In this document: positions 7,351 through 28,814 of the stretch, piece by piece
How the letters are laid out: every line of letters begins with the position of its first letter
How positions within the stretch are numbered: position 1 is the stretch's first letter
NCBI GenBank assembly: GCA_031279695.1
Contig: JAITIA010000088.1
Location: 1-43,128 of the forward strand
DNA length: 43,128 nucleotides
Direction of reading: 5' to 3'
Source: Prevotellaceae bacterium
Lineage (GTDB): Bacteria; Bacteroidota; Bacteroidia; Bacteroidales; UBA932
Position numbers and translations under genes: made by a program
Notes under the pieces: model-generated
Told to the model about the DNA's origin: nothing
Databases searched by the model: none
The model's input: only the letters and a program-made list of their open reading frames with translations

Positions 7351-7411
7351 AGTTACCACTTGGTGATACGCTAAGTTACCACTTGGTGATCCGCTAAGTT
7401 ACCACTTGGTG
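7351..7411. repeat. 23-bp tandem repeats resembling an IS21-type element end
   Basis: AGTTACCACTTGGTGAT begins units at 7351 and 7374, and the partial AGTTACCACTTGGTG begins a third at 7397, with an exact 23-bp period. Units 1 and 2 differ at one base. Multiple subterminal repeats containing ACCACTTGGTGAT-like cores are a feature of IS21-family ends as I remember them. No istA or istB gene is present, so this would be a remnant or a solo end. Confidence 0.55.
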
Positions 7412-12818: not shown

Positions 12819-12857
12819 AATCGTAAATCGTAAATCGTAAATCGTAAATCGTAAATC
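12819..12857. repeat. Heptanucleotide tandem repeat AATCGTA
   Basis: Five perfect copies of AATCGTA and a partial sixth (AATC) end just at the 3' end of the TldD-like gene. Seven-base tandem repeats are prone to slippage and could serve as a strain marker. Confidence 0.85.
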
Positions 12858-14637: not shown

Positions 14638-14661
14638 AATTCATAATTCATAATTCATAAT
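14638..14661. repeat. Heptanucleotide tandem repeat ATTCATA
   Basis: Three copies of ATTCATA followed by ATT lie immediately upstream of the GH30 gene's -7 box. Copy-number change here would alter the promoter's upstream spacing. Confidence 0.7.
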
Positions 14662-14668
14662 TTTGTAT

Positions 14669-26947: not shown

Positions 26948-27056
26948 AGAATTTTTACTCAGGGTAAACGCAAAAAATTAATCGATTTCGATTTGATAAC
27001 CGATTCTATTTTGGAAAAACGTGCAGGCTACCGCCAACACTGTCCCAAATCACAGA

Positions 27057-28325
27057 TTATTTTGTTATTAGCCATTCCAAAACAGATATAATATTGATTG
27101 TCTTATTATTTGCCAAGTATGTTCTGTTTTCGTTTAATGTTATAATGGTTAGTGCATTACAATCCAATTCGTTGGATGCCCTAAAAAGCGCATTGGTTTC
27201 GCGGTTAAAAGTTTTTACTGCCGAAATATCTGCCGAAACCTGGATCAATTCCACCACTTTATTGTTGTTACTCAACACAAAATCAACCTCATAGCCATTT
27301 TGAAAGTAATATACATCATTGAAAGTCTGATTTCTACGACGCAACAGTTCGATACACACAATATTTTCGAGCCGCGAGCCAAAATTTTTTGCGGAAAAAC
27401 CTTCTTTTGCTGCTGCAATAAACGCAGGGTCAATCACATAATTTTTTTCGTTACGAATACGCTCTTTGCTTTTAAACGAAAACTTCTGAATACCAAGCAG
27501 TAAATATGCCTTACGAAGATAAGCAACATAGTTTTCTGCCGTATGTGTTGAGCCAAACGAGAATTGCTCTGCAAGTTTTTTATAGTTGATTTCTGTTGCT
27601 ATCGTATCAGTCATATAATCAGCCATTTTCCTCAATGATTCAGGATAACGTACAGAAAATCGTGGCTGTATATCCCGCGAGATAATTGCATTAAAAAGAT
27701 TTTTGATATATGCTTTTTTATTGCGCACAAAAAACAGTTCGGGAAAACCGCCCTGCGAGATATATTCTTCAAAAGCCGTTTTCCGCAATGCAACACCTAT
27801 TGTAGAATTGTCGTCGAACGGGATTTTTTTGTATTGCAACATTTCCGAAAAAGAGAAAGGATAGAGTTCGATTTGATTGTAACGTCCTGTAAGATGCGTA
27901 CTTAACTCATGGCTCAGCAGTTTGGCATTCGAACCGGTAACAAACAGACGTATTCCTTGCCGCAATAGCCGGTTTATAAACAAAAACCACGAAGGAATAT
28001 TTTGTATTTCATCGCAAAACAGGTATTTGAACTCGCCATAAACCATATACAATGCCTCAAGCACAGAATTAAGATCTTTCGATTTTAAGCCGTATAGACG
28101 TTCATCATCAAAATTGACATAGGCGTAATCTATGTTGTTTTGTTTCAGGACTTTATGGCACAAAGTAGATTTTCCGCTACGTCGTACACCTATAACAATT
28201 TGAGCCAAAGGACTGTCCAACTCAAAAAATATTTCATCCCTTCGACCGGTCAGTGTAGAAAAAACAATTGCGTTTTTTTCGTTCTTTTGGTCTGTAATAA
28301 CCTGTTTATAAGTATTTATATCCAT
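27057..28325 (-). CDS. AAA_14/DUF4143 ATPase adjoining a tandem-repeat array
   Basis: A 422-residue ATPase: N-terminal AAA_14 domain with Walker A GVRRSGKST (46-54), Walker B LFCDEIQNIP (102-109) and a sensor VTGSNAKLL, followed by a C-terminal DUF4143 domain with a restriction-nuclease-like stretch (ENIVCIELLRRR, then GYEVDFVL). I chose the ATG at 28325 because a longer frame with a TTG start at 28352 overlaps the promoter's -7 box. The family is widespread, multi-copy and of unknown function in Bacteroidetes. DUF4143 shows possible catalytic acids, which suggests but does not prove DNA cleavage. The gene converges on hisC and is preceded by the 32-bp repeat array. Confidence 0.85.
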   Translation of the reverse strand: MDINTYKQVITDQKNEKNAIVFSTLTGRRDEIFFELDSPLAQIVIGVRRSGKSTLCHKVLKQNNIDYAYVNFDDERLYGLKSKDLNSVLEALYMVYGEFKYLFCDEIQNIPSWFLFINRLLRQGIRLFVTGSNAKLLSHELSTHLTGRYNQIELYPFSFSEMLQYKKIPFDDNSTIGVALRKTAFEEYISQGGFPELFFVRNKKAYIKNLFNAIISRDIQPRFSVRYPESLRKMADYMTDTIATEINYKKLAEQFSFGSTHTAENYVAYLRKAYLLLGIQKFSFKSKERIRNEKNYVIDPAFIAAAKEGFSAKNFGSRLENIVCIELLRRRNQTFNDVYYFQNGYEVDFVLSNNNKVVELIQVSADISAVKTFNRETNALFRASNELDCNALTIITLNENRTYLANNKTINIISVLEWLITK

Positions 28326-28348
28326 AATATAAGTGATATTTTTACGCC

Positions 28349-28357
28349 GCAAAGGTA
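28349..28357 (-). promoter_or_regulatory. -7 box of the AAA_14 ATPase gene
   Basis: On the minus strand TACCTTTGC lies 23 bases before the ATG at 28325. The position where TTTG would lie, 19 bases upstream (28377-28380), is occupied by the TGCAC core of the first degenerate array unit, so array-binding proteins could control this promoter. Confidence 0.65.
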
Positions 28358-28373
28358 AGTAAAAAATTTAATA

Positions 28374-28750
28374 ACTGCACTATTTTGCAAGTTTTTCGCT
28401 TATAAACTGCACTAAAAACGCTATTTTTCATTTATAAACTGCACTAAAAACACTATTTTTTGCTTATAAATTGCACTAAAAACACTATTTTTCGATTATA
28501 AACTGCACTAAAAACGCTATTTTTCGCTTACAAACTGCACTAAAAATGATGTTTTTCATTTGTAAACTGCACTAAAAATGATATTTTTCATTTGTAAACT
28601 GCACTAAAAATGATATTTTTCGCTTGCAAACTGCACTAAAAATGATGTTTTTCATTTGCAAACTGCACTAAAAATGATGTTTTTTGCTTATAAACTGCAC
28701 TAAAAATGATGTTTTTCGATTGTAAACTGCGATAAAAGTAAAGGTGTTTA
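28374..28750. repeat. 32-bp tandem repeat array upstream of the AAA_14 ATPase
   Basis: Ten full units start at 28406, 28438, 28470, 28502, 28534, 28566, 28598, 28630, 28662 and 28694, always 32 bases apart, with degenerate units at 28374 and 28726. The conserved core is ACTGCACTAAAAA. The variable part changes at few positions: CGCT or CACT in the four gene-proximal units and TGAT in the six distal ones, followed by a T-run and CATTT, CGCTT, CGATT or TGCTT. Thirty-two bases is about three DNA turns, so cores fall on one helix face. There are no unique spacers, so it is not a CRISPR, and 32 is not a multiple of three. The rest of 28326-28814 shows no gene. Confidence 0.95.
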
Positions 28751-28814
28751 AATCTTTTTGAGTATCTGTGATTTAGTACAGACCGGAAAACAGAACAGAT
28801 TAAACGTCTCTCAA

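Follow-up and report, generated by a model that had tools for sequence, protein, structure and literature searches.

Here we report on a strict tandem array of 32-base-pair (bp) units beside a gene for an AAA_14/DUF4143 ATPase. The array very probably serves the ATPase itself as a helically phased operator, and together with the gene it probably constitutes a mobile single-gene unit. The pair lies in contig JAITIA010000088.1 of a Prevotellaceae bacterium (assembly GCA_031279695.1, positions 1 to 43,128 of the forward strand); this whole stretch of 43,128 nucleotides is referred to below as the window. We consider it likely that the array is an autoregulated operator of the adjacent gene and travels with promoter and gene as a single unit. 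The computational support covers the array, its spacing, promoter phasing, covariation of a protein residue with an operator base, the boundaries of the unit and the repeats flanking it, and from these patterns in sequence we infer physical binding and repression.

Tandem Repeats Finder (TRF) delimits the array at 28392-28737, with a period of 32, 10.8 copies and 0% indels. Counting degenerate edge copies there are 12 cores, the first starting at 28373, the second at 28405 and the last at 28725, with every step exactly 32 bp, as expected from an initial annotation that had described a strict array without length variation. The same annotation called the core invariant, which is slightly too strong: read towards the gene, the core is TAGTGCAGTT or a close variant and is identical in 10 of 12 copies, but an inner unit at 28469 carries a C-to-T change (TAGTGCAATT); the outermost core reads TATCGCAGTT. 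The annotated 13-mer core, ACTGCACTAAAAA, has nine exact matches in the 2.9-Mb genome, all within the array, and its reversed control has none. The array had further been placed directly upstream of the promoter, and it is indeed upstream of the gene; the proximal core starts only 25 bp upstream of the -7 box, however, so that the innermost repeat overlaps the promoter. A CRISPR array was considered and rejected, as the 32-bp unit is continuous and lacks spacers, the neighbouring proteins scanned included no cas gene and the array had no Rfam match.

Arrays of this kind are a recurrent property of the family. Searching 61 related genomes at the protein level yielded about 150 homologues, the majority of which were retrieved together with flanking DNA, and upstream of them TRF found arrays of 2-14 copies with unrelated sequences and, at many, a shared 32- or 33-bp period. 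Within 350 bp upstream, the best self-match lag was 32 or 33 in 28 of 123 family genes against just 1 of 155 non-family genes from these loci (Fisher p=3e-10), and shuffled sequence gave almost none at these lags. A single-protein scan of genome contigs produced no matches, and a tight alignment (A2) was used for the close subfamily; it recovered 80 loci in named genomes plus six viral contigs, and 59 of the 86 upstream regions tested had a repeat score of at least 12, nearly all at lags of 32, 33 or their doubles. Nearly all close homologues (42-83% identical) have 2-12 direct repeats at 32 or 33 bp, and the spacing is the same in archaeal (Methanoperedens, L191; Lokiarchaeon, L202), Chlorobiota (L179) and Chlamydiae (L197) members. 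In 60 loci we curated a 10-bp core by eye, mostly of the pattern TANNGNNNTT; successive cores were 32 bp apart in 115 instances and 33 bp apart in 34. Spacings of 23 bp were seen upstream of AAA_14 genes at L036, L037, L043, L051, L055 and L065, and of 40-44 bp at L047, L077, L086, L093, L095, L101 and others.

The window's own genome contains 12 DUF4143 matches, and three mutually distant ATPases have three unrelated 32-bp arrays: that of the window, TTTCGGAATACAATCC... at the ATPase on contig C248 (L014) and CAAGTATCACTTTG..., in about a dozen copies, at the one on C100 (L246). An 83% identical paralogue on C241 has two window-type cores 32 bp apart; this short contig (1-4207, L011) carries three consecutive AAA_14/DUF4143 genes. 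Among 396 genomes of the phylum the exact window core pair occurs only in the window's genome, a search that was too strict because cores diverge. The initial annotation had not anticipated that core sequence varies among relatives at constant spacing, or that array and gene behave as mobile. The functional coupling that it proposed is nevertheless borne out by the 32/33-bp repeats at nearly all close homologues, and its suggested check of homologues turned up, in the close family, neither a consistent lack of arrays nor arrays without the gene.

Protein and array are linked by a residue-base code. With overall identity regressed out, position 259 of alignment A1, which is the Thr of FGSTHTAENY and the first residue of the recognition helix, ranked first of 421 columns in explaining core similarity. 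An acidic residue at this position accompanies C at core base 4 in 30 of 31 cases and a small or hydrophobic residue accompanies T (13/13), while Asn or His goes with G in 11 of 11 after a 1-bp shift of L028 and L158, and in 9 of 11 before it. Nineteen sequences less than 62% mutually identical all fit the code, if one Tyr-to-C case that belongs to none of the three classes is included. On a tree built without columns 246-296, which hold the winged helix, all eight inferred base changes fall on branches with a change of residue class, of which there are nine among 112 (P~2e-11); this test shares the curated cores, the residue classes were chosen after the pattern had been seen, and the covariation was itself found by scanning all columns. 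The ATPase thus very probably binds its own array, and since core sequence and reading residue change together, each gene would keep a private address.

Promoter geometry points to what such binding may do. Across the 46 loci with a recognisable -7 box, distances from the nearest core to the box cluster at about 14, 25, 37, 47 and 57 bp, positions separated by one helical turn, and a single outlier lies at 10 (Rayleigh p~1e-12 at 10.7-11 bp; p~0.003 for 13 non-redundant loci). This phasing supports the earlier proposal that the sites share one DNA face, and with it the multi-site operator, one of several options then offered; we saw no sign of silencing, of plasmid partition or of a nucleoprotein system with several components. 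The core start lies no more than 28 bp from the -7 box in 39 of the 46 loci, that is, overlapping the promoter, and at L160 and L181 (labelled as spirochaetes, with binning errors of metagenome-assembled genomes (MAGs) possible) the core sits within an apparent sigma-70 spacer (TTGTAA-17-TATGAT and TTGCAG-17-TATAGT). Overlap of this kind favours repression, and self-repression is the most likely action of the ATPase on its own promoter.

A dispersed regulon was rejected, because single cores (one mismatch or fewer) elsewhere in the same genome were no commoner than the reversed control. Phased core pairs were likewise confined to the window array and the C241 paralogue, so that the array was not met apart from its gene, and the ATPase looks like a dedicated autoregulator. 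We propose that its winged helix reads the 10-bp core and that copies three helical turns apart would set all bound proteins on one DNA face. Innermost copies overlapping the promoter would then let the protein repress its own transcription, with array length setting the tightness, and core and reading residue would evolve jointly to maintain the private address.

A tandem, AT-rich array of clean period could also be a neutral minisatellite, or an iteron-like replication or partition site, that lies beside the gene by chance. We regard this as very improbable: the same period is found with unrelated sequences at many unlinked homologues, the cores are phased with the promoter, and covariation with a protein residue already contradicts it. 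An iteron replicon or partition locus was rejected as well, since the sole gene of the unit is the AAA_14/DUF4143 gene and there is no Rep or ParA/B gene in it.

The boundaries of the unit suggest that it moves. The window copy and the one on C241 share 81% identity across 1363 bp, a stretch that begins at the second repeat and ends shortly after the stop codon, and beyond which they are unrelated; in the listed pairs (72-89% identical) the shared part is again the gene and at most a few repeats, without flanks, for which 1.5 kb was available in most. Direct repeats bracket array and gene in 33 of 200 family genes compared with 6 of 287 non-family genes from those loci (p=8e-9; shuffled pairs, 0), mostly 18-260 bp long and enclosing about 1.2-1.9 kb. 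At L032, a 51-bp direct repeat covers the last part of an SDR gene and the first part of a FabH-like gene, both of which are whole, and at L170 the repeat similarly covers a gene end and the start of the next gene, with both genes kept. Homologues are present on 268 plasmid records, and no hisC contig examined from the window's genus has the ATPase at that place, several of them ending close to hisC. These observations are consistent with a mechanism in which array, promoter and gene would enter new sites, often leaving a long direct target repeat on either side; the flanking repeats may be viewed as target duplications made by a unit that moves itself. Some 'plasmids' of Bacteroides sp. CACC 737 seemed to carry three copies, but they look like pieces of a single chromosomal locus, and we did not treat them as separate insertions. 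At L208, from a Diapherotrites archaeon, two tandem AAA_14 units have similar direct repeats around both, and non-family genes near ATPase loci (L183 4181-5291; L105 220-1438) also lie within long direct repeats.

The flanking repeats might instead have arisen when circles that carried local DNA underwent Campbell-type homologous integration, or through tandem duplication at an earlier time. Their copies are often only 81-95% identical and very variable in length, and no empty sites were found, all of which would suit such an origin; we hold it to be rather doubtful, given that the L032 and L170 repeats retain both genes as target duplication would, and that bracketing repeats are about eightfold rarer at control genes.

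It is somewhat less probable still, and in our view unlikely, that the array is a cis-acting transposon end, recognised by the ATPase-nuclease for its own movement in the manner of TnsB sites or Mu ends, with autoregulation secondary. Joint movement of array and gene, the long bracketing direct repeats and the self-recognition code would all agree with this, as would L086, where a 40-bp array flanks the ATPase gene on both sides. Cores 3' of the gene were nevertheless found in 0 of 55 loci, a Pfam scan found no transposase domain, a direct-repeat length of 18-260 bp is unlike that of known transposases, and regulation explains the promoter phasing better. Inverted termini are not general either. 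An 18-bp inverted repeat (27040-27057 and 28764-28781, 16 of 18 matching) brackets the window gene and array, but terminal inverted repeats were rejected as element ends: the family mean is 8.1 versus 7.6 in mismatched pairs, the window's pair, the strongest, is nearly unique, and sequences akin to it are scattered over the genome. One of these, ATCCGAGTTTTCGGACAG, has more than 20 copies.

Several observations weigh against an autoregulated, mobile operator-gene unit. The 32-bp repeat is missing in family members on Acinetobacter and Lactobacillus plasmids and in one Bacteroides record, and other subfamilies are spaced at 23 bp or 40-44 bp. The cores were curated by hand, some host labels are those of MAG bins and possibly wrong, L028 and L158 obey the code only with their register shift, and L167 breaks it. 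A bracketing direct repeat is not detectable at the window element itself, and no empty site was found with the L032 flanks (100 relatives), the G442 flanks (41 genomes), YbaK/YbjQ synteny at L170 (247 genomes) or the Acinetobacter plasmid flanks; for these last two reasons we can only infer insertion with target duplication.

The features of the unit are collected in Table 1. The likely start codon is the first ATG (28323-28325) and not an upstream TTG. Both domains recognised in the initial annotation score above the Pfam cut-off (AAA_14, 118.7 bits; DUF4143, 72.6 bits), and the AlphaFold model (pLDDT 92) consists of an AAA+ domain, a winged helix and a C-terminal domain. The topology of the last (alpha-beta-beta-beta-alpha-beta), with its conserved E, ExD and Q, fits a PD-(D/E)XK nuclease whose K is replaced by Q in this subfamily, and many of its top fold matches are PD-(D/E)XK nucleases, weak but recurrent (E=0.002-0.2). 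The family had been called common and of no known function, which needs qualifying: it is listed in PADLOC as the defence candidate PDC-S01, a profile that spans the AAA+ and C-terminal domains and matches the window protein with E=3.6e-96.

Table 1. Features of the ATPase unit (window coordinates)
Feature	Position	Strand	Remarks
AAA_14/DUF4143 ATPase gene (PADLOC PDC-S01)	27057..28325	-	422 amino acids from ATG
C-terminal PD-(D/E)XK-like nuclease domain	27060..27434	-	Conserved E319, E345-x-D347, Q361 (A1 numbering)
Winged helix (predicted DNA reader)	27435..27587	-	Key Thr of FGSTHTAENY, codon 27546-27548 = position 259, alignment A1
AAA+ ATPase domain	27804..28214	-	Walker A GVRRSGKST, Walker B FCDEIQ, invariant in family
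Bacteroidota -7 promoter element TACCTTTG	28350..28357	-	Consensus match only; proximal core starts 25 bp upstream
Array of 12 cores TAGTGCAGTT, 32-bp spacing	28373..28737	-	Unit consensus ACATCATTTTTAGTGCAGTTTATAAGCGAAAA; 28373 (proximal) and 28725 (distal) copies degenerate

The unit may serve host defence, itself or both. PDC-S01 could be a stand-alone anti-phage gene, its array a sensor or tight repressor site that is freed once the ATPase has been titrated or removed by phage DNA or nuclease activity, with infection thereby inducing the nuclease-bearing protein; we see this as a genuine possibility, though short of an even chance. It would accord with the PADLOC match, with an architecture of AAA+ plus PD-(D/E)XK-like domains whose weak structural matches include McrC, Can2 and Card1, and with the finding that a Thermus DUF4143 gene is among those altered by plasmid presence (PMC4406477). 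PDC-S01, an ATPase fused to PD-(D/E)XK, was flagged through its genomic embedding, is very widespread, holding fourth place by frequency among prokaryotic defence systems, and has undergone multiple transfers between domains, but most such candidates still await validation (PMC12988326). COG1373 is among the genes shared in the mobilome (PMC10782964). Those neighbours in the window that have family matches are not defence genes; they belong to histidine biosynthesis or encode a glycosyltransferase, a methyltransferase and a GldJ-like protein. An anti-phage role does not conflict with autoregulation and mobility. More tentatively, and on balance doubtfully, PDC-S01 units might form a new class of single-gene mobile element, in which an AAA+/winged-helix/PD-(D/E)XK protein recognises a private 32-bp array and inserts array and gene through cuts staggered so widely that 18-260 bp of target are duplicated, leaving operons intact, while the address evolves by matched changes of residue and base.

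Other repeats in the window include two mutually unrelated 23-bp tandem arrays (2369-2465 and 7351-7411) and perfect 7-bp tandem repeats at 12819-12857 (AATCGTA x5.6) and 14638-14662 (AATTCAT x3.6), both intergenic and each adjoining the beginning of a long open reading frame.

A DNA address readable from sequence, together with a one-residue code, would make the ligand of many PDC-S01 ATPases predictable, and the matched changes of residue and base offer an unusually clean natural record of DNA-binding specificity switching. Should the units prove mobile, tallies of defence genes might have to be revised; if they are selfish single-gene elements, a large share of the fourth most common 'defence system' would be selfish DNA.

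By profile, the window protein belongs to the same family as PADLOC PDC-S01 (single gene, COG1373, AAA_14/DUF4143). Among open-licence papers we found none on operator arrays, a recognition code or an insertion signature for PDC-S01, which is described there without these features, unlike the window family here. The best whole-protein fold match (E=6e-9), and also the best sequence-profile match, is the archaeal AAA+ ATPase SSO1545 (PDB 2fna), which differs in that the TM-score is only 0.42 with 18% identity and no array is reported for it in the literature found. Elements of the Tn7/Mu type have several protein sites at one end and an AAA+ component; the window family resembles them in both respects, but is without a transposase domain, paired ends or a fixed short target duplication. 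I-TevI is an autorepressing mobile endonuclease whose own DNA-binding domain represses its promoter, and which is intron-borne with a defined homing site. The unit proposed here would likewise be a mobile nuclease gene under its own repression, and is distinguished from I-TevI by its AAA+ domain and its tandem operator.
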